Positions 7,066 to 22,737 of a stretch of DNA of 33,335 bases are shown here, piece by piece. A program made the position numbers and the translations under genes. The stretch's first letter is position 1. Each line of letters starts with the position of its first letter. Origin of the DNA: Nitrospira sp. bin75 (GTDB lineage: Bacteria; Nitrospirota; Nitrospiria; Nitrospirales; UBA8639); contig MPMZ01000033.1 of NCBI GenBank assembly GCA_002238765.1, positions 1-33,335 of the forward strand. Reading direction: 5' to 3'. The notes under the pieces were generated by a model. It worked only from the letters and a program-made list of their open reading frames with translations. It was not told where the DNA came from and searched no databases.

Positions 7066-7308
7066 CTATTTTGCGTCCGAAGCTTTCGCCTCGCCGTCGG
7101 CTTTCTCTTCACCGTCAGCTTTCTTTTCACCCTCGGCCGGGGCCTCGCCGTCGGCTTTCTTTTCACCGTCGGCCGGGGCCTCGCCGGCAGGTTTCATCTC
7201 GGCTGCTTTCTCATCAGCCATGGCCATGCCGGAGAAGCCGAGAACAAGCACGAAGGCCAGCAGGCCGAGCAGGATAAAAGATCGAGAGATGTGGTGAATG
7301 AATCGCAT
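7066..7308 (-). CDS. small exported Lys/Glu/Ala/Gly repeat protein
   Basis: This is an 80-residue protein with a clear signal peptide (positive start, hydrophobic core at about 12-27, likely cleavage after AMA-D near 31). The mature part is a low-complexity string of GEAPADGEKKADGE-type repeats. It is highly charged and presumably disordered in the periplasm or on the surface. AAGGAGG lies 7-8 bases before the ATG and a strong terminator follows, which supports a real gene. The repeats are also nearly identical at DNA level (CGGCTTTCTTTTCACCGTCGG recurring on the + strand), so copy number could vary. I do not recognise a function. Similar Lys/Ala-rich exported peptides are often annotated as hypothetical. 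Confidence 0.8.
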   Translation of the reverse strand: MRFIHHISRSFILLGLLAFVLVLGFSGMAMADEKAAEMKPAGEAPADGEKKADGEAPAEGEKKADGEEKADGEAKASDAK

Positions 7309-8259: not shown

Positions 8260-8772
8260 TTACTCAGAATCTCCTCGCATCATAAATGGATGATTCAAAA
8301 TCCACATTTCGTACATGGGAATCGCAAACATGATCAAAAACGCGATCGTCATGAGAACGTCGCCGGCCAACAGGGTCAACACGAAGAGGGGAGACACGTA
8401 GGTGATCAGCCACGGCGAGACGAGATCCAACGTCACACCCGCAAATGCGCCCCACGTGGTCAGCACCTTCGTGAGAGGTCCGGCCATGGTCAGGTACAAG
8501 ACGTGCACCATGATCAGGAACACGACGGGCATCGTGAACAAGTGAAAGTGCGAGGTTTCGGCCAATTGACCGAAGGACATGGGTTCACCGAAGTTATCGT
8601 CGGAACCGCGATAGTGTTGCGCGATGCCTTTCGGCGTCAGGTCGGTCATGCTGTGTGCCCAGACGAAAGTGAAGACAAATCCCACCAACATCAGGAGCAA
8701 GAACCACGTATACACCAACCGGATCTGCCGGTCGGTATCACGTAGTCGAAACCGGGTATTGAAATTACGCAT
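8260..8772 (-). CDS. four-helix membrane protein with histidine pairs, possible heme b carrier
   Basis: This 170-residue integral membrane protein has hydrophobic helices at about 19-39, 77-97, 106-133 and 135-157. Histidines lie at helix ends or inside helix 2 (H40, H53, H75, H77, H90, with H161 near the C-terminus), in the motif ETSHFHLFTMPVVFLIMVH. Such spacing could ligate heme b or a metal, but I cannot assign a named family. It begins 17 bases after the stop of the FMN-binding protein gene and ends at a strong terminator, so it is the last gene of the porin-lipoprotein-flavoprotein operon. Context suggests it passes electrons between the inner-membrane quinone pool and the exported flavoprotein. 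That role is inference. Confidence 0.8.
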   Translation of the reverse strand: MRNFNTRFRLRDTDRQIRLVYTWFLLLMLVGFVFTFVWAHSMTDLTPKGIAQHYRGSDDNFGEPMSFGQLAETSHFHLFTMPVVFLIMVHVLYLTMAGPLTKVLTTWGAFAGVTLDLVSPWLITYVSPLFVLTLLAGDVLMTIAFLIMFAIPMYEMWILNHPFMMRGDSE

Positions 8773-8789
8773 TGCAACGGAAATAGCCC

Positions 8790-9494
8790 CTAAAGCCCGA
8801 AGAGAGCTTCAAAAAATCCCTTTTCGGACTTGCTGGCGGCCATGACGTTGCTGCCGAGTCCGCGAGGCTTCAAATAGAATTCATTCACCAGGACGAGCAC
8901 GCGTTTCACCCCGGCGCTTGCGGACCGTACGGACATCGTCGCCCCGGTAATATTGATGATATCCCGATTGATCCGTATCGGGTCCGCGATGGTTTTTCCC
9001 TGGTACTGATAATTGAAGCGTTTCGTGGCGATCTCGTTACCCCGGGCCTCCCGGTACACCAGTACTTCAAAATTCGAGCATTCGCCTGTCGAATCAACGC
9101 CCACCATGTACGTAATCGGACGATGCTTGCCGATGGTATTCTGGATAAGCGCGTACCCATCGATGTTCCCCTTGGTTTCCCCGATAAAGACATCGAAGGT
9201 CGTTTCCGGAAATTTCCAGCCGATGACTTCTTCAACGAAGGCTTTTTGCTCTGGCGTTAACGTCAAGGTATCTTTACGGATCTTTTCGGAATCCGGAAAC
9301 ATGACTCTTGCGGCTTCTTCCTCGGTAAAATAAATTTCCAGATGGCCCAGTTCCTCCGGCGTGAGCCAGCGATTGAGCTCGTGGTCCCAGATTTGTTCAG
9401 CAGGTTGCTCCTGGGCGAGGACCTGGGAAGAAGAAAGCCCCGTTAAAATACTGCAAATAGTAAGAATAACTGCAATTCGGAGTGGTATGAACAT
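8790..9494 (-). CDS. exported FMN-binding domain protein with flavinylation motif
   Basis: This is a 234-residue protein with signal peptide MFIPLRIAVILTICSILTGL and probable cleavage after VLA near residue 26. The C-terminal half matches the FMN-binding domain found in NqrC/RnfG and related exported flavoproteins. It carries NITGATMSVRSASAGVKR, where the second Thr of TGAT (about T186) is the expected site of covalent FMN attachment by ApbE. The open frame extends upstream to 9566, but those 24 residues (KTLDTRFRGNDRFG) are a translated REP repeat, so I start at 9494. No strong ribosome site precedes it. An ApbE gene lies divergently at 12885. It probably moves single electrons in the periplasm between the membrane partner at 8260 and an unknown acceptor. 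Confidence 0.88.
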   Translation of the reverse strand: MFIPLRIAVILTICSILTGLSSSQVLAQEQPAEQIWDHELNRWLTPEELGHLEIYFTEEEAARVMFPDSEKIRKDTLTLTPEQKAFVEEVIGWKFPETTFDVFIGETKGNIDGYALIQNTIGKHRPITYMVGVDSTGECSNFEVLVYREARGNEIATKRFNYQYQGKTIADPIRINRDIINITGATMSVRSASAGVKRVLVLVNEFYLKPRGLGSNVMAASKSEKGFFEALFGL

Positions 9495-9515
9495 AGTCAA
9501 CCGCGCCCCGAATCT

Positions 9516-9545
9516 GTCATTCCCGCGAAAGCGGGTATCCAGTGT
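9516..9545. repeat. REP-type element
   Basis: GTCATTCCCGCGAAAGCGGG followed by TATCCAGTG is the common bacterial extragenic repeat with stem CCCGC-GAAA-GCGGG. It sits between the BamC-like lipoprotein gene and the flavoprotein gene, inside the operon, and artificially extends the flavoprotein reading frame. Confidence 0.8.
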
Positions 9546-9591
9546 CTTTCTCTTCTGTCCCTTCATTCGTGTGGCCCCGCAAGATTTCGTA

Positions 9592-10047
9592 TTAACCGAC
9601 GACAGTACATCCCTTACTCAGCAGTTGATTGGTAATCCGTTGGACCAGACGCTGTTCTTCTCCGGCGTTGGGAGGAATGCGCTTCCAGGCTATGCCTTGC
9701 GACCGCGCGCCCACCGGAGAAAAAAACTCCCGGGTCTGCCGGACGGAAATCCTGACAGGCTGCCGGGCTGCTTCGACGTTCACAAAAAACCGCGCGCGTT
9801 CCTTGTTGCCTTGGCGTTGGAACACCCCGATACTTCGCTGGGAAGCAAAGGTTGCCCAATCGGTTTCAATTACCCCCTTGTCCTTATCCTCTTGAGTCAA
9901 CACGAATTCGTCCATACTCGCGAGGGTGATGGCCCAGGCCTGGTCATAGGAACAGCCTGCCTTCACGGTGCTGGGCGCGCCGGAAACCGCGGCGCACCCC
10001 ACCGTGGAGACGATCAGAAACAAGGAAAGAACGATAAGTCTACCCAT
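9592..10047 (-). CDS. BamC-like periplasmic lipoprotein
   Basis: The 151-residue product begins MGRLIVLSLFLIVSTVGCAA, a lipoprotein signal with C18 as lipidation site; the -3 residue is Thr, slightly off consensus. The mature part has AWAITLASMDEFVLTQ, then GVIETDWATF, followed by beta-strand-like segments. This resembles the repeated domain of BamC/NlpB-type outer-membrane lipoproteins. The frame is open to 10185, but that extension translates a dispersed repeat (PPHPNPLPPRERG), so the start is set at 10047. The repeat's G-rich strand supplies the Shine-Dalgarno sequence (GGGGGGAAG). It lies 56 bases after the porin stop and is likely co-transcribed. It may help place or gate the porin; this is inference. 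Confidence 0.75.
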   Translation of the reverse strand: MGRLIVLSLFLIVSTVGCAAVSGAPSTVKAGCSYDQAWAITLASMDEFVLTQEDKDKGVIETDWATFASQRSIGVFQRQGNKERARFFVNVEAARQPVRISVRQTREFFSPVGARSQGIAWKRIPPNAGEEQRLVQRITNQLLSKGCTVVG

Positions 10048-10058
10048 AATTTCTTCCC

Positions 10059-10093
10059 CCCTCTCCCTTGGTGGGAGAGGGTTGGGGTGAGGG
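10059..10093. repeat. dispersed repeat family B, copy 1
   Basis: CCCTCTCCCTTGGTGGGAGAGGG forms a near-perfect hairpin, followed by TTGGGGTGAGGG. A copy in the opposite orientation lies at 12906-12940 with only about two differences over 35 bases. It sits between the porin and lipoprotein genes and provides the ribosome site of the latter. Confidence 0.85.
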
Positions 10094-10103
10094 GGCCTTT
10101 CGG

Positions 10104-11582
10104 TTAGAAATACGACGACAAATTGAATTGGAACCCGTTGTGATCCGTGGCTCCCATAGGATTGTTCACGCCCCTCCTGTTCCACGTATAGGCGAACTTG
10201 ATCACCGAATCTTCAATCGGCCGGAAATTGAGCCCCAGGGTCAACCGTTCTTCGTCAGTCGAGTTGTTGAGGTCGGAATCGGTGTTGGCATCCGCCTTTC
10301 CCCAACGAAGGATGCCCGTAAACGTCGAGTCCTGGCCGAAATAGCTGGGCAGGGCCCTGGTGAGGCCCTCGGGCATAAAGTGGTAATTCAATTGCACGTA
10401 ATATCCGAACATGTTTTCGGGGAGCCTGAATACTTTTTCTTCGGCTGCCATTCCTCGGCGCCTCAACGAGTCGTCATCATCCGAAGTGAATACGGTCGTC
10501 CCTTCCTCCACAACCGTATACGTGGGCCCTTCGGCGTTGCCCCAGGCGGCTTCACCCATGAGTTCAAAGGGTCCTCGTTGCAGGGCCCCGTCGATGGCCC
10601 ACAGAGTCAGGTCATACTTGTCCTTCTTGTCCCATTTGCCGTGGTGAACGGATCCGGCCACCTCGACACCCAACATCGGGCTGAACGAGACACGGCTGAC
10701 GATCGCCTTGTTTTCGTTGTTATCCTTCTTCAGACTTCCGCGAGACGACCGCGTCCCGGCACCATCGTTAAGCTGGCCGTTATCGCCGACAAAGCCATTC
10801 ACGACGTACATTTCGTAGTCGATCTTGGAAAGCGCGGTCGGATAGAACGTGCCGAAAAAGCCGAGTCCGGATTCGGCGAACGTGGAAGGCAGGATCGAAC
10901 GGCTCACCATCGGCCGGAGAGGCAAATCGTTCAAGGGCGAGTCGTGGATCATGTTGAACCGGCCCATGGGAACCAGGATGATGCCGCCCCGCAGGTTGAA
11001 CGCGTCGTTGAACCGGTAGTCCATGGTGGCGAATTCCATCTTGATGTCGCCGTCCCCTTGGTTGCCCTGGGGTCCGCCGTGTTCAACCTCGAGTTCGGCG
11101 GCCACGCTGAGCCGGTCCGTGACCTGGGAATAGAAGAATGGCACGAAGCGTTCCTGGTCGAATCCCGACTTCTTGTCGCAATCCCGTGCGCCTCCGTTGT
11201 CACATTTCGTGAGCGTAAAGTCGATGTAACCCCCGAGGATGGTCTTCGGAGCCTTGACGAAGGGTCTGGCATAGATGGTCCGTCCCCCTTGCAGGCCGCT
11301 ACCACCCGAGAATTCCTGGCCGTACCTGATCGACTGCTTTGTGGTGTCGCCCATGCCTGGCACGGAAGACCGCATTGTGGCCGGCGGCGCCGGCGGCCGC
11401 GCCACTGATCCTGCTGCCGGAGGCGGCTGTTGTTGGCGCTGTTGCTTTGACCACTCTTCAAACATTTTGCGTATCTGTTTCATTTGGGCGGGCGTAAATT
11501 CCGCATCTTCAGCCCAAACCGTTGCCTGCGGCATAATCATGAGGACTATCAGTGCCCCCGTGATCAAAAAAAATCGTCGCAT
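10104..11582 (-). CDS. outer-membrane beta-barrel porin
   Basis: This 492-residue protein has a signal peptide (cleavage near VWA-ED, residue 24). A short helical, Gln/Pro-rich segment follows (about 30-70, with KQIRKMFEEWSKQQRQQQ), possibly a coiled coil that trimerises or contacts peptidoglycan. The rest is a long series of alternating amphipathic strands ending in QFNLSSYF, the terminal-aromatic signature used by the Bam machinery. It resembles phosphate-selective OprP/OprO-type porins in layout, but the substrate cannot be read. AAGGAGG lies 7 bases before the ATG. It heads the operon that includes the lipoprotein, the flavoprotein and the four-helix membrane protein. A promoter with a Fur-like box lies upstream of the Com-like gene in front of it. 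Confidence 0.9.
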   Translation of the reverse strand: MRRFFLITGALIVLMIMPQATVWAEDAEFTPAQMKQIRKMFEEWSKQQRQQQPPPAAGSVARPPAPPATMRSSVPGMGDTTKQSIRYGQEFSGGSGLQGGRTIYARPFVKAPKTILGGYIDFTLTKCDNGGARDCDKKSGFDQERFVPFFYSQVTDRLSVAAELEVEHGGPQGNQGDGDIKMEFATMDYRFNDAFNLRGGIILVPMGRFNMIHDSPLNDLPLRPMVSRSILPSTFAESGLGFFGTFYPTALSKIDYEMYVVNGFVGDNGQLNDGAGTRSSRGSLKKDNNENKAIVSRVSFSPMLGVEVAGSVHHGKWDKKDKYDLTLWAIDGALQRGPFELMGEAAWGNAEGPTYTVVEEGTTVFTSDDDDSLRRRGMAAEEKVFRLPENMFGYYVQLNYHFMPEGLTRALPSYFGQDSTFTGILRWGKADANTDSDLNNSTDEERLTLGLNFRPIEDSVIKFAYTWNRRGVNNPMGATDHNGFQFNLSSYF

Positions 11583-11720
11583 CGGACGACCTCCTTGTTG
11601 TTGGGGACTCAGGTGGTCCTCTTGACCACTAAAGGGGCTCTCGGGCCCTCAAGTGATGTCTTGATCTGTTTAGTGTTTAATGGATTCGTCAGCCTCCTTA
11701 ACGGCATCCTTACTCTTCGG

Positions 11721-11918
11721 CTATTGCGCGCATGGTGCCAGGATGACTTCACTTTCCTTCAGACTGTTGTATGAAATGGTGACAATCCGTTTGCAGCGTT
11801 TGCACTTGACTTCGAGATTATCCCCGCGAAGTTTTGCGATAAGCTGGCCGCATCCACATCTGGCTTCGGAAGGTTTGACTTGTTTTCCAATCCACCGGGT
11901 GTTTCTGTCAAAATTCAT
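11721..11918 (-). CDS. Com-like zinc-ribbon protein
   Basis: This is a 65-residue protein with two cysteine pairs, C21-x-C23 and C39-x2-C42, in the context RCGCGQLIAKLRGDNLEVKC. The layout matches the small Com zinc-ribbon proteins first known from phage Mu, where Com activates translation of the mom DNA-modification gene. Here no mom or phage gene is adjacent, and it sits between a good promoter (12023-12051) and the porin operon. It may be a zinc-binding regulator of that operon, or a domesticated stand-alone gene. The ribosome site is weak, so translation level and start are uncertain. Confidence 0.65.
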   Translation of the reverse strand: MNFDRNTRWIGKQVKPSEARCGCGQLIAKLRGDNLEVKCKRCKRIVTISYNSLKESEVILAPCAQ

Positions 11919-12008
11919 TGAATGAAAAAGAAACGCAATGAGACTTTAGTAAATTCGTCGAAAATTGACAAAAATAAAAATGATTTTTGTTTTTATCTAA
12001 ATTGATTT

Positions 12009-12023
12009 TGATAACGGTTATTA
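12009..12023. promoter_or_regulatory. Fur-like operator
   Basis: TGATAACGGTTATTA is a 7-1-7 inverted repeat with one mismatch. It agrees at 11 of 14 positions with the 7-1-7 Fur core TGATAAT-N-ATTATCA. It directly abuts the -10 of the leftward promoter at 12023-12051, an expected place for repression. A fur gene lies at 22249-22737. The site sits in the gap between two divergent gene arms and could control both. Confidence 0.55.
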
Positions 12024-12051
12024 AAATACAGAATTTCCAATACCCTGTCAA
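12023..12051 (-). promoter_or_regulatory. sigma-70-type promoter, leftward
   Basis: On the - strand TTGACA (12051-12046) is followed after exactly 17 bases by TATTTT (12028-12023). It points to the Com-like gene and porin operon. The surrounding 11940-12080 stretch is strongly AT-rich compared with the flanking genes. Confidence 0.6.
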
Positions 12052-12190
12052 CTTTATTTCGTCATGAAAAAATATGACTGCAACCCGTTGTTCGTATTGG
12101 TAGAATGAGATGATTCGCTCTCATGTCACGCTCCGCTCATTGATGAGAGAGGGTTGGGCGAATGAACATCTACAAGGTCGGCGCAGGGCC

Positions 12191-12772
12191 ATGATGCGTG
12201 GAAAATTCTTTTTGGCGGGTCTTTCTCTTGTCCTGGCGCCGGCCTGTGTGTCCGGGGTTTCGGAGACTTCGCCGGACTCGACGGTGCATCAATTGGCCTT
12301 CGGCTATGTGCAAGTCGAGACCGATGGCCGTTATCCACGTAACTATCCGGCCAAACTGCGATTTTTTCTCCTGACGAATGAGGAGACGGGCGCCAGATCA
12401 CGGGTGAACGTGGATACCGAATCGGGAGTGTTTTCCATCAGTCTGCCGGCGGGACGGTATGTCGTTGACCGTTTGCAATTCAGTGAAGGCCCGTTCAGGG
12501 TGGAATCCCATGTGCAATTGGCTTTCCTCGTTCCCGAGAAAAAACTGGCGTATTTAGGCTCGTGGCAAATCGAGCTTGAAACGCCTCGGACCATTCGCCA
12601 TATGAGAATCCGTATCCTCGAGGGGGAGGCGGAGTTTTCAAAGAAATTTTCCGCAGTGCTTGGCTCGGAACGCACGCCCATTGCCACGGTCCTGCCGAAA
12701 CCCGAGACGTTCGAAACGCGAGGGTTTATGGTTGACGGGCAACCGAACGCGAGATATTTCCGTCGCAGATAA
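12191..12772 (+). CDS. hypothetical lipoprotein
   Basis: The start at 12191 gives a 193-residue product beginning MMRGKFFLAGLSLVLAPACV, a short signal with a cysteine at 19 that could be lipidated, although the lipobox (LAPAC) is imperfect. The frame is open from 12110, but the export signal argues for the later start. The mature part is beta-rich (LAFGYVQVET, FSISLPAGRYVVDRLQF, LAYLGSWQIEL), reminiscent of carboxypeptidase-regulatory-like or prealbumin-type domains. I do not recognise the family. It lies just upstream of apbE on the same strand and divergently from the porin operon, so it may belong to the same envelope redox locus. Confidence 0.7.
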   Translation: MMRGKFFLAGLSLVLAPACVSGVSETSPDSTVHQLAFGYVQVETDGRYPRNYPAKLRFFLLTNEETGARSRVNVDTESGVFSISLPAGRYVVDRLQFSEGPFRVESHVQLAFLVPEKKLAYLGSWQIELETPRTIRHMRIRILEGEAEFSKKFSAVLGSERTPIATVLPKPETFETRGFMVDGQPNARYFRRR

Positions 12773-12820
12773 GCTGCCACAGATGACAGATGAGGAAAAG
12801 TGGGGAACGGATTATCACTC

Positions 12821-12880
12821 CCCCCTTGAGGGGGAGTCGCCGAAGCCAAGCCGTCAGGCGCCGGCTGATACGGTGGGGGG
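12821..12880. repeat. dispersed repeat family A, copy 2
   Basis: It matches the element at 127-187: CCCCCTTGAGGGGGAGTCG, then AAGCCAAGCCGTCAGGCG, ending CGGTGGGGGG. It lies between the lipoprotein gene and apbE. Confidence 0.8.
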
Positions 12881-12884
12881 GATA

Positions 12885-13976
12885 ATGTACGGCTGCGACG
12901 TACCTCCCTCACCCCAGCCCTCTCCCACCAAGAGAGAGGGAGTAAGATTTCGGATTTCTCCCATCTTGTTGACGCTCATGGGTGTCGCCTTCGCGTGTGG
13001 GCTGGGGGTTGACCTGCCTGCCCATGCCGCCTCACCGCACGTGGTCAAGCGCGGCCAGATGCACATGGGCACCCTGGTCTTTCTGACGGCCGTGGCTCTG
13101 GACAAACAACTGGCCCATGAGGCCATTGATCAGGGTTTTGCGGAAATACATCGCTTGGAACAGATCCTGAGCACGTGGATCCCCGACAGCGAACTCTCAC
13201 GGATCAACGCCGCTGCCGGGCAACGCGCCGTCAAGGCCGGTCCGGAAACCATGGAACTGTTGGAATACTCCCTGGAAATGGCCCGGTTGACGGAGGGAGG
13301 CTTCAACATTGCCATCGGCCCGGCCGTTGAGGCCTGGAACGTCAGTCGCGAAGGGCGCATTCCGTCGCGGGAAGAATTGGAGTCCACGCGCCCGCTCATG
13401 GATCTTTCCGCCATTCAGATCGATCGGGAGGCGGGCACCGTGTACCTGGCGCGGTTCGGGATGCGAGTGGATATCGGCGGTATCGGCAAGGGCTATGCCG
13501 CGGATTTTGCGGCCCGTGTGATGCGGGAAGCCGGGGCTTTGTCTGGTGTGGTCGCCATTTCAGGGGATATCAAAACCTTCGGCCGCCTGCCCGACGGTCA
13601 ACGGTTCGTATTCGGCATCCAACATCCCCGTAAGGAAAATGGGATCACGATCGGGCAACTCGAACTCGAAGATGAAGCCGTCTCCACGGCGGGTGATTAT
13701 CAGCGATTTTTCGAGAAAGACGGCATTCGCTATCATCACATTCTCGATCCTCAAACGCTCCAGCCCGCACGTCTTTCTCAGAGTGTGACCATCGTGGCCT
13801 CGACCGGGGTGCTGGCCGACGGCCTCGATACCGGCATCTTCGTCATGGGTCCGGAACAAGGGATGGCGTTGATTGAACGCCTACCCGGTGTCGAAGGCGT
13901 GATCGTCGGTGCGGATGGCGCCGTGTCCGTCTCATCGGGCCTACAAGACCGGTTGCAGTTGAGTGCACAGAAATAG
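12885..13976 (+). CDS. apbE: FAD:protein FMN transferase (ApbE)
   Basis: ApbE cleaves FAD and links FMN to a Thr or Ser in exported target proteins. Family motifs are present in order: an N-terminal signal-like segment ending LPAHAA; GGFNIAIGPAVEAWN; VDIGGIGKGYAADFAARVM; AISGDIKTFG; the HHILDPQTLQPA metal/flavin site; and SVTIVAST plus DGLDTGIFVMG near the C-terminus. The start is uncertain. The ATG at 12885 gives 363 residues but its first codons are a dispersed repeat; the next ATG at 12978 would lack positive charges before the hydrophobic core; a TTG near 12966 is another option. Its likely substrate is the FMN-binding protein at 8790-9494, with its TGAT motif, encoded on the opposite arm of the locus. 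Confidence 0.92.
   Translation: MYGCDVPPSPQPSPTKREGVRFRISPILLTLMGVAFACGLGVDLPAHAASPHVVKRGQMHMGTLVFLTAVALDKQLAHEAIDQGFAEIHRLEQILSTWIPDSELSRINAAAGQRAVKAGPETMELLEYSLEMARLTEGGFNIAIGPAVEAWNVSREGRIPSREELESTRPLMDLSAIQIDREAGTVYLARFGMRVDIGGIGKGYAADFAARVMREAGALSGVVAISGDIKTFGRLPDGQRFVFGIQHPRKENGITIGQLELEDEAVSTAGDYQRFFEKDGIRYHHILDPQTLQPARLSQSVTIVASTGVLADGLDTGIFVMGPEQGMALIERLPGVEGVIVGADGAVSVSSGLQDRLQLSAQK
12906..12940. repeat. dispersed repeat family B, copy 2
   Basis: CCCTCACCCCAGCCCTCTCC continuing to CACCAAGAGAGAGGG is the reverse complement of the element at 10059-10093 with about two changes. It overlaps the first codons of the assigned apbE frame, so the true apbE start may lie after it. Confidence 0.85.
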
Positions 13977-17531: not shown

Positions 17532-18236
17532 TTACTTCTTGTGACCGCCGGTTCCGTGGCCCTTGCTTTTCTTGTACTTGGAATAGTCGCCGGAATGTCC
17601 CATGCCGCCGCCATGGGATTTGATGCGTTCGTGAATTTTGTCCATCCGCGTGCGTTGCTCGTCGGTCAACACGGCTTGGGCGTCCCGTTTGGCTTTGATT
17701 GAAGCCATGTAGAGTTTTGTCTTCAAGGCGTGCAGCTTGTTGAATTCCGCTTCAATGTCGGACAGACCGGCCTTCTCGTTCTTCAGGACTTCATGTAAAT
17801 CGATACTGGCCAATTTCACGTCAGCCTTCATTGTGATTCGGCCCTTCTTGTAGTTGACCTTGAGGTCTTGCAGTTTCTGTTCCTGTTCGGCCGTCAGGCT
17901 CATGCCATCTTTGAATTTCAGGATGTGCTTGATAAATTGAATGGCATCCTGATGGTGCCCGGGATGCGTGGACCCGTGCCCATGGCCGCCGTGTCCGTGC
18001 TTCCCATGGCCTGACGAATGCATTGAATGATGGCCTTCGTCGTGTCCCTTCTGCATCCCGTCGTGATGCGCGGAATGGGGATGGTCCTCATGCCCCTCAG
18101 ACGACCCCTTAGGATGATGGCCGTCACGATGGACGGACCCGGACGCTTCGGCCAAGGCCGGAACGGCAGTCAGCAGGAAGAACGCGGTTAAGAGGGAAAG
18201 GGGTAAACGCCAACGCGGGGATTCATGGATTCTCAT
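17532..18236 (-). CDS. histidine-rich Spy/CpxP-like periplasmic protein
   Basis: This is a 234-residue protein with a signal peptide cut near ALA-E (residue 29). A histidine/glycine-rich region follows (about 35-95, over 25 His with HGKHGHGGHGHG runs), then a helical domain with two LTxxQ-type motifs (LTAEQ at 114-118, LTDEQ at 190-194). That is the signature of the Spy/CpxP/CnrX family of metal-stress and chaperone proteins. The C-terminus returns to a Gly/His tail. The histidine stretch should bind Ni, Zn, Cu or Co, in storage or sensing. AGGAGG is 7-8 bases before the start. A hairpin (18278-18284 with 18295-18301) lies in its upstream region. It is downstream of the iron transporter genes but separated by 195 bases, so probably separate. 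Confidence 0.85.
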   Translation of the reverse strand: MRIHESPRWRLPLSLLTAFFLLTAVPALAEASGSVHRDGHHPKGSSEGHEDHPHSAHHDGMQKGHDEGHHSMHSSGHGKHGHGGHGHGSTHPGHHQDAIQFIKHILKFKDGMSLTAEQEQKLQDLKVNYKKGRITMKADVKLASIDLHEVLKNEKAGLSDIEAEFNKLHALKTKLYMASIKAKRDAQAVLTDEQRTRMDKIHERIKSHGGGMGHSGDYSKYKKSKGHGTGGHKK

Positions 18237-18431: not shown

Positions 18432-19493
18432 TCATGGTTTCCTATCGAATAACACCGTATGGGTGGCGTTGACTTCCAACTCCACCTTCGAGTCGAGAGG
18501 GAAGAATCGGGTCGACGCTTCGCTGCTGTGCACGACGTCGCCGGAACCCAGGCGGATACCATAGATGATCTCTGAGCCTCGAAACTGACGGGATTCCACG
18601 GTTCCGTCGCCATTCCCGTTTTCACGAATGTGAACGTCGTCCGGTCGAATCATGACCGAGACGTCCCGGCCGCCACGGTAGCTCGGAGGAACCGGGAACG
18701 TGCCGAGTTGAGTCACGACCGCGGAATCGCGAATGGCTCCGGGAATGAAGTCAGCCTGCCCCACGAACTCCGCGACAAAAGGCGAAACCGGAAGATGGTA
18801 CATGGTTTCGGGCGTGGCGAATTGTTCGAGTTGCCCATTGTTCAGGACGGCCACGTAATCAGCCATGGCAAAGGCCTCTTCATGATCATGCGTCACGAGA
18901 ACGGCGGTGGTTTGGGTGGTTTTCAGCAGATGCAGAAGTTCTATGCGCATGCGTTCGGTCGTATCGGGATCCAGGTTGCTGAACGGCTCATCCAACAGGA
19001 GCAGCACGGGTTGGGGGGCCAGGGCGCGAGCCAATGCCGCGCGTTGCTGTTGGCCGCCGGAGAGTGCATGGGGATATCGTCCGGCGAATTCTGAGAGTCC
19101 GGTGAGAGACAGCATCTCGTCGATTCGGTTTCCACGGTCTTCAGCCGTGGCTGACGCGAGCCCGAAACTCACGTTATCCCGTACCGTCAGGTGAGGAAAC
19201 AGGGCATAATCTTGAAATACCATGCCGACCCGCCGTCGTTCGGGAGGGACGTGCCGATCCGGGGCCGAGACGACTGCCGTGTTCAGCCGGATTTGGCCGG
19301 CGGAAACCGGTTCAAACCCCGCGATGGCCCGCAGCGTGGTAGTCTTCCCGCATCCGGATGGCCCCAATAGACAGATGACGTCGCCCTTCCGCGCCGAGAA
19401 GGAAATTCCCTCCACCGCAGGGGAGCCGGCGTCATACGAGCAAGCCACGTCCTGCAACTCAAGCACAAGGGGCGTATCGTCGGGAGAAGTCAT
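18432..19493 (-). CDS. fbpC: ferric-iron ABC transporter ATPase
   Basis: This 353-residue ATP-binding subunit drives iron import through the FbpB channel. Walker A (GPSGCGKTT, about 44-52), Q-loop (MVFQDYALFPHLTVRDN), signature (HALSGGQQQRAALARAL), Walker B (LLLLDEPFSNLD) and the H-loop (LVTHDHEEAF) are all present. They are followed by a C-terminal TOBE-type regulatory domain (VSVMIRPDDVHI). I start at 19493 (MTSPDDTPLVLELQDV); an in-frame ATG at 19538 would add 15 uncharacteristic residues, and neither start has a strong ribosome site. It is the last gene of fur-fbpA-fbpB-fbpC. Confidence 0.92.
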   Translation of the reverse strand: MTSPDDTPLVLELQDVACSYDAGSPAVEGISFSARKGDVICLLGPSGCGKTTTLRAIAGFEPVSAGQIRLNTAVVSAPDRHVPPERRRVGMVFQDYALFPHLTVRDNVSFGLASATAEDRGNRIDEMLSLTGLSEFAGRYPHALSGGQQQRAALARALAPQPVLLLLDEPFSNLDPDTTERMRIELLHLLKTTQTTAVLVTHDHEEAFAMADYVAVLNNGQLEQFATPETMYHLPVSPFVAEFVGQADFIPGAIRDSAVVTQLGTFPVPPSYRGGRDVSVMIRPDDVHIRENGNGDGTVESRQFRGSEIIYGIRLGSGDVVHSSEASTRFFPLDSKVELEVNATHTVLFDRKP

Positions 19494-19564
19494 ACCTGGG
19501 TAAGTGGAATGGCGCCTGGCGGGCTTGCCGAAGAACATCTCATGGCAAGGTGTGCGGGGCGCGG

Positions 19565-21178
19565 TTACGTCCGGTCTTTTCGCATCAATAGTAACACGAC
19601 CGGAATGGTAATGACCACGATCAGCAGGGCCGGGGCAGCCGCCAATTGATAGAGTTCTTCGCTGGCTTCAAGCCAAATCCTGACGGCGAGGGTATCGAAC
19701 CCCACGGGCCGCAGCAGGAGTGACGCCGGTAATTCCTTCATGCATTGGACGAACACCAGGATCCAGGCACTCAGAAATCCACCCTGCACCAACGGCAGGG
19801 TCACGCGAAAAAAAGTTCGAAGGGGGCGAGCCCCGAGGCTCCGCGCCGCTTCTTCGAGATTCGGAGTGAGTTGCTGGAGGGTGGATTCCATGCCTTGCAG
19901 CGCCGCCGGGAGAAAATGCACCAGATACGCCATGAGCAGGACGAGGATCGTGCCGTATAGTTGTGGAACGGTTTGGGAGACCAGGACTAGGACGGCGAGG
20001 GCGGCGACCGGGCCGGGTAGCACGTAGCCGGCATACGCCCCTTGCACGCAAAAGGTGCCGGCCCAGGTCGGGCGCCTGCACGCCAGGTAGGCGAGAGGAA
20101 TCCCGCAGATCACGGCCGCGGTGGCCGTCATGCCCGAAAGCGAAACACTGTTCCACACGTATCCGATGAACTGGTGAGCAATCTCACCCGCGGATGCCGC
20201 CTTGACGGTCCATTGAATGAGCAGCAGTACCGGCAGCCCGAATGAGGCTCCGAATACGAGGAGCAGGTAGCCGGTAAACAGCAGGGTCGTGAGGGGACGG
20301 CAGGGTTGAGGAACCGGTTTTCGATACCGGCCGGTCGTTTGGTAGAACCGGCTTCGCTGCCGGAACCACCGTTCGCCGAACAGGAAGACAAACGCGCAGG
20401 CGACCAGTATCAAGCTCAGGCAGGCAGCCGCCGTGTTGTCGAATCGTCCGGTCATTTGCTGGTACACGGCGTAGGTAAAGGTTTGAAAGCGCAACAGCGA
20501 GACCGCGCCGAAATCGGACGCGACGTAGAGAATCGCCAGGAACAGGCCGGCGATCAGCGACGGGCGGATAAGCGGCAGCGATATTCGGAAGAACGTCGTC
20601 ACTCGATTGGCTCCGGTCGTGCTGGCCACCTCTTCAAAGGAGACGTTGAAATTCTTGAGCGCCGAGCGAGTCAGCAGGTAGACGAACGGAAACGTGTTCA
20701 AGGCAAGGACGAGCACGGCGCCCGCGAAACTGAACGGTGAAAAGAACACGGCCTCCGGCCCGGCAATCGTCTGCCAGACCTGTTCCAGCAAGCCCCCGCG
20801 TTTCAACAGGTACGTGTAGGTATAGGCCAGGACGTAGGAGGGGATCGACAAGGGCAGGATCAGCAGCCAATCCCATATTTTCGATCCGGGAAAGGTATAG
20901 CGGGTCAGGATCCAGGCAAGCGAGACGCCCAGGGTCAGGTTGATGACCGCGACGCCCAGAGAGAGGGAGACCGTATTGAGGAACAGTTCAGGGACCCGCG
21001 TGGCCCACAGGCGTCGCCAGACCGCCGGATCTGCGGTCATTGCCGAAAAAACGACGTAGAGCAACGGCAGCATGAGCGCCACGGCCAGACAGAAGCCGAG
21101 CAGGATCAGCGGAGAAGGCAAACGAAAACGGATCAACGGCAGCGGGAGTAAAGTTTTAGCGGAGTCCAACTTCTTCAA
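19565..21178 (-). CDS. fbpB: ferric-iron ABC transporter permease
   Basis: This 537-residue inner-membrane permease has about 12 transmembrane helices in two homologous halves, each with the EAA-type loop for ATPase contact (FEEVASTTGANRVTTFFRI in the first, LEEAARSLGARPLRTFFRV in the second). This fused two-half layout is typical of FbpB/SfuB ferric-iron permeases, although thiamine permeases (ThiP) are similar. The start is a TTG at 21178, overlapping the end of fbpA by 23 bases, so translation is probably coupled. Confidence 0.92.
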   Translation of the reverse strand: MKKLDSAKTLLPLPLIRFRLPSPLILLGFCLAVALMLPLLYVVFSAMTADPAVWRRLWATRVPELFLNTVSLSLGVAVINLTLGVSLAWILTRYTFPGSKIWDWLLILPLSIPSYVLAYTYTYLLKRGGLLEQVWQTIAGPEAVFFSPFSFAGAVLVLALNTFPFVYLLTRSALKNFNVSFEEVASTTGANRVTTFFRISLPLIRPSLIAGLFLAILYVASDFGAVSLLRFQTFTYAVYQQMTGRFDNTAAACLSLILVACAFVFLFGERWFRQRSRFYQTTGRYRKPVPQPCRPLTTLLFTGYLLLVFGASFGLPVLLLIQWTVKAASAGEIAHQFIGYVWNSVSLSGMTATAAVICGIPLAYLACRRPTWAGTFCVQGAYAGYVLPGPVAALAVLVLVSQTVPQLYGTILVLLMAYLVHFLPAALQGMESTLQQLTPNLEEAARSLGARPLRTFFRVTLPLVQGGFLSAWILVFVQCMKELPASLLLRPVGFDTLAVRIWLEASEELYQLAAAPALLIVVITIPVVLLLMRKDRT

Positions 21179-22166
21179 TGACGGTCATGGTGGGATCGCG
21201 GAGTTGAGCCAACCGGCTTAACGGGACGCGGGCCACCTGAATGCTTTGAAGCGGCAACAGCTCAGGCGCAGCCGTTACGTGAGGATTCAAAGGATATTCT
21301 TTGTTTACATGCGCGAACATACGTTGCCCTTTGGGAGAAATCAGAAACCGGACCAATGCCCGAGCCTGCTCAAGGTGTTTGGTCTGCACGGTGACGCCGA
21401 TTCCAGCGGCATTGAGCACGACACCCATGCCTTGCTCTCCTTGATCCGCTGGAAGCGACGCAATCGGGGCATTCGGATGCTTGGCCAGGTGGCGGTTGAT
21501 ATAATAATGATTGACCGGCCCGGCGGCCACTTCCCCGCGTGCCACGGCTGCGACGATTTGCCGGTTTTTCCCATAAACGAGTGATCCCGCATTGTCCTTC
21601 AAGCCTCGCAGGAACGCGGTGGTCACCTCGTCTCCCTTCACCGCCCGAATGACCGACACGCCGGTCTGCAAATAGACGCTGCCCGCACTGGGGATCGCGA
21701 TTTTGCCTCGCCATTTCGGTTCGGCGAGATCCAGGATGGAGGAGATGTCGCCCGGACCGACCATCGTGGTGTTATAGACGATCACCCAAATTCGACCCGA
21801 CAAGCCGATCCACGTGTTGTCCGGTGCCCGGAACCGGCTGGGAATCGTTTCCTCAATGCCGGGGATGGTCGCGGGTTGGAGCAACTGCAATTCACGCGCG
21901 CGCTCCAGGGTGCCGGCGTCATTGGTGATGAGTACATCGGCCGGAGTCCGGGCCCCTTCCATCTGAAGCCGGTTGATCAGTGCCGTGCTGTCGGCCGTCA
22001 GCATTTGGACGTTGATGCCGGATTCCGCCTGAAACGCATCAAGTACCGGTTGAATGAGCCGTTCGGCGCGGCCGGAGTAGACGACCAGCGAATCCTCGGC
22101 ATGGCTCCAGGAGGGGAGACTCAAGGTCGCCGCTACGACGAAAAAGAAAAAAAAGACCCTTGGCAT
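21156..22166 (-). CDS. fbpA: ferric-iron-binding periplasmic protein
   Basis: This is a 336-residue solute-binding protein. The signal peptide MPRVFFFFFVVAATLSLPSW is cut near SHA-E. The mature protein starts with SLVVYSGRAERLIQPVLDAF and has the tyrosines used for Fe(III) in FbpA-type proteins (VYNTTMVG; NHYYINRH). The open frame reaches 22334, but that extension translates an intergenic repeat (IRNPQSQIRN), so 22166 is chosen for its export signal. Followed by permease and ATPase genes and preceded by fur, which supports iron as the substrate. Confidence 0.92.
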   Translation of the reverse strand: MPRVFFFFFVVAATLSLPSWSHAEDSLVVYSGRAERLIQPVLDAFQAESGINVQMLTADSTALINRLQMEGARTPADVLITNDAGTLERARELQLLQPATIPGIEETIPSRFRAPDNTWIGLSGRIWVIVYNTTMVGPGDISSILDLAEPKWRGKIAIPSAGSVYLQTGVSVIRAVKGDEVTTAFLRGLKDNAGSLVYGKNRQIVAAVARGEVAAGPVNHYYINRHLAKHPNAPIASLPADQGEQGMGVVLNAAGIGVTVQTKHLEQARALVRFLISPKGQRMFAHVNKEYPLNPHVTAAPELLPLQSIQVARVPLSRLAQLRDPTMTVIEEVGLR

Positions 22167-22180
22167 TTGAATGGTGAAAC

Positions 22181-22247
22181 GATTGCGGATTTGGGATTGT
22201 GGATTGCGGATTGTGGATTGAAATATTCTCAAATCAAAAATCCACAA
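22181..22247. repeat. GGATT tandem repeat plus inverted repeat between fur and fbpA
   Basis: GATTGCGGATT / GGGATTGTGGATT units repeat in tandem over 22181-22220. TTGTGGATT (22211-22219) can pair with AATCCACAA (22239-22247). The element fills the 82-base gap between fur and fbpA and extends the fbpA reading frame artificially. Confidence 0.75.
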
Positions 22248-22248
22248 T

Positions 22249-22737
22249 TCAACGTGGGCCTGGCCTGGCCTTGGTCTCCAAGTCCCGCCCGCAATTTTTG
22301 CAATCGCCGTTCGGCAACTGCATGGGAGTGCCATACAATTCCAGCTTATGGGTGCGAATCGAAAAACCGTTTTTTCTGGCGACCTCTTCCTGTAATTCTT
22401 CTATCTGGCAATTCTCGAATTCTATAATCTTGTCACATACCGTGCAAATAAGATGATCATGGTGCCCTTTATGGGCTACGTTGTCGAACTGGGTCTGACT
22501 GCCGAAGTGTTGTTCCTGGGCGAGGCCGGTCTCGCACAGGAGTTTGAGCGTGCGATACACCGTGGCCAGGCCGATATGGGGATCTTTCTTGGACAGCAGC
22601 CGATACATCTGCTCGGCCGTCACGTGTTCCATTTTCAAAAAGGTCGTGAGGATGTTCTCACGTTGGCGGGTCAGTTTCAGACCGTTTTTCGAAAGATGTT
22701 GCTTGAGAATCTCAAGCTCTTTGGTGGGTTTCGCCAT
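22249..22737 (-). CDS. fur: Fur-family metal-responsive repressor
   Basis: This 162-residue protein has an N-terminal winged helix (LTRQRENILTTFLKMEHVTA, ATVYRTLKLLCETGLA) and a C-terminal dimer/metal domain with HKGHHDHLICTVC and a second pair CKNC. Family context and the downstream fbpABC genes favour an iron-sensing Fur, though Zur, PerR and Nur share these motifs. No good ribosome site precedes the ATG. It probably controls fbpABC, and perhaps the Fur-like site at 12009. It is divergent from the Panacea-like gene at 22895. Confidence 0.9.
   Translation of the reverse strand: MAKPTKELEILKQHLSKNGLKLTRQRENILTTFLKMEHVTAEQMYRLLSKKDPHIGLATVYRTLKLLCETGLAQEQHFGSQTQFDNVAHKGHHDHLICTVCDKIIEFENCQIEELQEEVARKNGFSIRTHKLELYGTPMQLPNGDCKNCGRDLETKARPGPR

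Follow-up and report, generated by a model that had tools for sequence, protein, structure and literature searches.

The gene cluster described here lies in a 33,335-nt stretch of DNA from Nitrospira sp. bin75; this whole stretch is referred to as the window, and its numbering is used for all positions. Two divergent arms encode a candidate flavin-based electron-transfer module. One of them comprises a small zinc-ribbon protein, an outer-membrane porin, a lipoprotein, an exported protein with a flavin mononucleotide (FMN)-binding domain, FMN_bind, and a four-helix inner-membrane protein named TM4; the other comprises a putative lipoprotein and ApbE. These seven genes had been described in an earlier sequence-only reading, and every one of them was found at the position and on the strand given there. 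The elements of both arms and of the promoter between them are the following:

8260..8772, minus strand: TM4, a 170-amino-acid four-helix inner-membrane protein, candidate electron conduit (AlphaFold2 model, invariant residues)
8790..9494, minus strand: exported FMN_bind protein with TGAT flavinylation motif (PF04205, E=7e-7; start taken at 9494)
9592..10047, minus strand: small lipoprotein, weakly BamC/NlpB-like (PF06804, E=0.0012, under the Pfam cut-off)
10104..11582, minus strand: outer-membrane porin with an N-terminal extension (AlphaFold2 beta-barrel and Foldseek)
11721..11918, minus strand: Com-like cytosolic zinc ribbon (CxC...CxxC), first in its arm (PF10122, E=0.0075, under the Pfam cut-off)
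12009..12023, strand not applicable: Fur-box-like 7-1-7 palindrome TGATAACGGTTATTA (pattern match in the divergent promoter)
12191..12772, plus strand: putative lipoprotein 5′ of ApbE (open reading frame with signal-like N-terminus; homologues similarly placed in many members of the order)
12957..13976, plus strand: ApbE, FAD:protein FMN transferase (PF02424, E=9e-79; exact start uncertain)

The FMN_bind and ApbE assignments are certain by Pfam, the former clearing the curated cut-off, whereas the Com-like and BamC-like names proposed in the same reading come from matches below the cut-offs. Both labels are weak, yet both genes encode conserved small proteins: the Com-like CxC...CxxC cysteines are kept across Nitrospirota, and the BamC-like lipoprotein is retained in the order and was not found in other classes among the loci compared. 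The porin call was borne out by a beta-barrel AlphaFold2 model, with a mean predicted local distance difference test score (pLDDT) of 77, and by Foldseek matches to OmpM1, MOMP, OprP and OprO (E about 1e-10 to 1e-12). Two 42-nt sequences resembling repetitive extragenic palindromes form an inverted pair, 90% complementary, with one copy directly after the porin gene (10052-10093) and the other directly before ApbE (12906-12947). Just past the TM4 end of the locus, positions 7066-7308 encode a small exported protein of AEGEKKADGE-type repeats.

The FMN_bind protein has a signal-like N-terminus and carries its TGAT motif at Thr186 (codon 8937-8939), in agreement with the attachment site proposed earlier at about this residue. 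The ApbE of the locus is the sole ApbE of the 3.04 Mb genome, in which just one FMN_bind protein passes the Pfam cut-off. Among relatives, where motif, fusion and adjacency counts refer to distinct TM4 sequences only, an xGA[ST] motif was found in 94 of 95 FMN_bind homologues, and ApbE and FMN_bind are fused as one open reading frame in 16 loci; in other Nitrospirota classes the two form a single polypeptide. In 27 homologues the motif at first seemed to be missing, because domain ends had been trimmed and because of AGAT/GGAT variants; the use of full open reading frames removed this artefact. In Candidatus Manganitrophus GAC4 (L098, CP114561.1) the ApbE-FMN gene and FbpB appear to be split over several frames, perhaps because of sequencing errors. 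The cluster has both the ApbE enzyme and the exported substrate with an [S/T]GA[S/T] motif that are expected of an ApbE-flavinylated extracytosolic electron-transfer system. Motif and enzyme make the predicted flavinylation machinery well supported, and the FMN_bind protein would be flavinylated in vivo.

A search of 296 genomes of the phylum revealed TM4 in 109; these include most of the order, with identities of 64-96%. Where wide stretches were checked, all order members have the porin-BamC-FMN_bind-TM4 core and most of them also have Com and the divergent lipoprotein/ApbE arm. Rare co-occurrence of the four-helix and FMN proteins had been named in the sequence-only reading as an observation that would speak against it. 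The opposite was found: TM4 adjoins FMN_bind or ApbE in 95 of 96 loci, the sole exception being at a contig end, and among 28 order members the FMN protein is present in the 14 TM4-positive genomes and in none of the 14 TM4-negative ones. A scan of named genomes added Nitrospira defluvii, Candidatus Manganitrophus and members of Methylomirabilota, Dadabacteria, Latescibacterota, Planctomycetes, Oligoflexia and Armatimonadetes. One locus seemingly without upstream genes (L144) was explained by 100-N gaps. The survey of synteny suggested by the earlier reading thus revealed a gene order that recurs across the order and beyond, and that is therefore not due to chance. From gene content and order, these comparisons lead to the conclusion that the genes of the predicted module have stayed linked in Nitrospira-type bacteria and in no fewer than five further phyla of bacteria. 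Together with ApbE and the TGAT motif, this co-conservation supports the earlier proposal of a flavinylation-based extracytosolic module with its own ApbE.

The AlphaFold2 monomer of TM4 (mean pLDDT 88.5, predicted TM-score 0.81) has four membrane helices (residues 15-43, 67-93, 99-125 and 128-159) and a short loop helix, so that the four-helix protein with several histidines foreseen earlier is now a confident model in which the conserved H75, H77 and H90 share one helix. Y54, G56, E72, H75, H77 and H90 are invariant in an alignment of homologues gathered by profile or similarity search (A1); histidine conservation is read from this alignment alone, as the scan pattern itself accounts in part for the HFH invariance of a further one (A3). 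No relative of TM4 was found in Pfam, NCBIfam or PDB sequences, and the Pfam matches of 49 members at E<=1 included no MsrQ, PepSY, NapH, DsbD, NQR/RNF-like or DUF4405 family. Structure searches with Foldseek and VIA-align gave no distinctive fold match. The top VIA match was COX1, at a Z of 7.7 that lies within the background of helical proteins, and hhalign against the COX1 of one relative gave nothing. The distribution of charges, which is weak evidence, places the N-terminus inside; E72, H75 and H77 would therefore lie near the periplasmic end of TM2, and H90 near its cytoplasmic end.

Further information on TM4 came from its paralogues of about 250 amino acids, whose TM1-TM2 loop holds an insertion with a CxxCH motif (L066:1968-2750; L067; L068; L070:4919-5668; L071:7951-8769; L072:7278-8045). 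This insertion indicates that the loop is periplasmic, and the paralogues argue for a redox role of TM4 and for a predicted periplasmic loop. Four of the eight paralogue loci (L066, L070, L071 and L072) also encode a porin-like relative of CxxCH porins, and where its start was read (L070 and L071) this protein has an N-terminal CxxCH. At L071 the paralogue shares an operon with Rieske and cytochrome b genes, and a cytochrome c gene is also present. Judging by its sequence, TM4 would be an undescribed membrane component of flavinylation-associated electron transfer with c-heme-motif paralogues. The exchange of flavin and cytochrome modules is a theme described in PMC8238504. It can be put forward tentatively, at rather less than even odds, that TM4 is the first of a new family of small membrane cytochromes with two forms, one feeding a protein with covalent flavin, with a plain porin and a role in iron uptake, and the other with a built-in c-heme and a c-heme porin, flavin and heme being exchangeable modules of one porin-linked system in several phyla.

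The conserved residues of TM4 can also be read differently, as the metal site of an Fe2+ permease or metal-binding subunit to which the flavoprotein only delivers reduced iron. A glutamate and three histidines on one helix (E72-H75-H77-H90) could bind Fe2+, and the genome lacks FTR1 and has no strong FeoB match (best FeoB_N 44 bits). Contrary to this, a permease would be expected to have more than four helices, a dedicated importer often adjoins TM4, and the paralogues bear a c-heme motif; moreover, if TM4 were a permease, the flavin would be left with no obvious source of electrons. A transport role is accordingly regarded as improbable. The paralogues bear on another alternative, close to the sequence-only reading, in which the module serves respiratory extracellular electron transfer, passing electrons out to external metals or small acceptors or taking them in, and has no part in iron nutrition. 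It would agree with the heme-porins adjoining the paralogues and with the Rieske/cytochrome b operon, as well as with the presence of the module in Candidatus Manganitrophus (L098), a genus known for manganese oxidation. The parts list is also the same as that of other flavinylated respiratory systems (PMC8238504). Nevertheless, the locus encodes only one FMN domain and lacks a multiheme conduit, and its genomic surroundings point elsewhere.

A Fur gene and an FbpABC-type operon (18432-22737) are located 4.5 kb from the module in the window:

17532..18236, minus strand: His-rich LTXXQ (CpxP/Spy-type) periplasmic protein (PF07813, E=1.7e-5)
18432..19538, minus strand: FbpC-type ATPase (ABC_tran and TOBE_2)
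19565..21178, minus strand: FbpB-type fused permease (BPD_transp_1, two stretches)
21156..22172, minus strand: FbpA/FutA-type ferric-binding protein (PDB sequence matches, best 7li0)
22249..22737, minus strand: Fur (PF01475, E=1.5e-36)

The 28 best PDB matches of FbpA are ferric- or iron-binding or closely related proteins (7li0 at E=2.2e-47), whereas in NCBIfam only models below their cut-offs were matched, such as 2-aminoethylphosphonate; FbpA is read as ferric-binding because the former outweigh the latter. The best NCBIfam match of Fur is to the equivalog model for Fur, with a score under the cut-off, and this protein is the only Fur-type regulator found in the genome, the other member of the FUR family being Zur-like. 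The gene of the Zur-like protein adjoins a TonB-dependent receptor (L077, G000:C113). The His-rich LTXXQ protein, encoded between FbpC and ApbE, is conserved in the family and could bind metal.

The linkage of Fur and FbpABC to the module recurs through Nitrospirales, including N. defluvii (L132), and Manganitrophaceae (Candidatus Manganitrophus), and an iron gene, FbpC counted, was found at 30 of the 37 Nitrospirota loci having 8 kb of upstream sequence. In other Nitrospirota the module is accompanied by FTR1, cupredoxins and Fur, and in Methylomirabilota by FTR1 and Fur. FeoB lies beside it in one Latescibacterota and one unclassified genome (L111, L157), and in an Armatimonadetes genome (L161) its neighbour is an iron-dependent repressor. 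P19 (PF10634) was not among the Pfam matches of the window or of the scanned genes of L054, a locus that has cupredoxins (PF13473). The occurrence of the same core beside three unrelated importers, FbpABC, FTR1 and FeoB, is the strongest argument for iron, and the linkage of the module to iron genes, as predicted from their annotation, is well supported. It is these genes, and not respiratory complexes, that the module is linked to and, with a Fur-box-like promoter besides, the respiratory alternative is considered unlikely. The same neighbourhood bears on a role in envelope redox maintenance, such as peroxide removal or the repair of periplasmic thiols or methionine, by a module that merely neighbours iron genes. 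Although flavinylated systems include MsrQ-like and DsbD-like classes (PMC8238504), the conserved neighbourhood showed no gene for MsrP, a thioredoxin-like protein or Dsb, and its recurring genes are those of three unrelated iron-importer families and of metalloregulators, making such a role very improbable.

The divergent promoter provides a possible regulatory counterpart to this linkage. The palindrome TGATAACGGTTATTA at 12009-12023 is the one place in the window that matches TGATAAYNRTTATYA in full, a 7-1-7 site matching at 11/14, and would be a candidate site for Fur binding. Relatives have a similar Fur-like site at a conserved place, the Nitrospira site TAATAATCGTTCTCA occurring at a near-constant distance. 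The best 7-1-7 site reached at least 11/14 in 61% of 87 upstream regions, compared with 3% of dinucleotide shuffles, percentages that are not independent tests since the loci are related. Genome-wide, a narrow Fur pattern gave only two sites and a looser one 67, against 23 for the reversed control, a result that is supportive but mixed. One of the better Fur-like sites of the genome lies between a PepSY-type membrane protein, recognised by eye, and a TonB-dependent receptor (L082; G000:C115 near 129139), which may be a second ferric-reductase/siderophore locus of the same genome.

The explanation favoured here, and thought to be probable, is that the locus is part of an iron-regulated cluster for assimilatory iron acquisition, in which a TM4-fed flavoprotein reduces Fe(III) chelates that enter through the porin. 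Since the module adjoins iron-uptake genes, its probable function is the reduction of iron within the cell envelope as an aid to uptake. Upon iron scarcity, Fur would leave the divergent promoter; the porin would admit small Fe(III) species to the periplasm, and ApbE would place FMN onto Thr186 of the exported protein. TM4, in the inner membrane, would hand electrons, probably from quinol, to this flavin, perhaps using a b-type heme held by H75, H77 and H90 and possibly as a dimer. The flavin would then reduce Fe(III) chelates, and the iron freed in this way would be caught by FbpA and imported by FbpABC, or by FTR1 or FeoB in other lineages. Of the earlier suggestion that electrons move to a metal or a small acceptor passing the porin, the metal option is retained and made specific by iron uptake, whereas the assimilatory iron context had been missed.

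Several observations weigh against this explanation. FbpABC normally imports Fe(III) and, in a genome without FTR1 or a strong FeoB, the reason for reducing iron is thus not settled. Binding of heme by TM4 is hypothetical, as the conserved histidines are on one helix only and none of the known cytochrome folds gives a distinctive match. For Planctomycetes, Oligoflexia and Dadabacteria, where the stretches were short or the neighbours unrelated, the surroundings of the module showed no iron importer. Lastly, in the promoter analysis the reversed motif, too, reached 11/14 in a raised share of regions (36%), owing to the AT-richness of the region and the common descent of the sites.

Nitrospira-type nitrite oxidisers rely on many iron-containing proteins, and the papers found contain no description of such an iron-acquisition route for them. 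The locus is a concrete candidate for one, present in most order members examined, and it would add TM4 to the components of flavinylation-associated electron transfer. Because the same core lies beside three unrelated iron importers, a dedicated reductase role is directly testable. The combination of genes, which the sequence-only reading had not recognised, is absent from the main texts of two surveys of flavinylation (PMC8238504, PMC11334425), where the terms 'porin' and 'Nitrospir' do not occur; their supplementary tables may list such clusters.

As in the ApbE-flavinylated systems of Meheust et al. (2021; PMC8238504), some of which are tied to iron assimilation, the locus combines ApbE and an exported [S/T]GA[S/T] FMN_bind protein, with a membrane protein as the candidate electron-transfer partner. 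The partners listed in the two surveys are NapH-, MsrQ-, PepSY-, DsbD- and NQR/RNF-like proteins (PMC8238504) and DUF4405/FezC (PMC11334425). TM4 matches none of the classes of the first survey, and the recurring porin and the link to FbpABC, FTR1 or FeoB with Fur set the present module apart from them. With the DUF4405/FezC cytochromes of Huang et al. (2024; PMC11334425), TM4 shares a small multi-helix membrane architecture, conserved histidines and ties to flavinylation and iron, and FezC, which is associated with flavinylation and ferrosomes, is thought to form heme sites by dimerisation; however, DUF4405 has six transmembrane helices and four central histidines, whereas TM4 has four helices, three conserved histidines on one of them and no DUF4405 match. 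FMN_bind is also found with iron transport genes, and with a proposed reductive uptake, in P19/FTR1 clusters (PMC8238504) and in SifABCDE of Bifidobacterium (PMC5449479). Those P19 clusters that include FMN_bind occur mostly in Gram-positive bacteria, P19 is not a partner here, and neither for TM4 nor for the porin is a counterpart reported in those systems. Finally, reductive iron uptake in cyanobacteria similarly involves entry through a porin, periplasmic reduction and import of the Fut/Fbp type (FutABC/FeoB/cFTR1), but the reductase proposed there is the terminal oxidase ARTO (PMC7676907), whereas here this function would be carried out by a flavinylated protein together with TM4.

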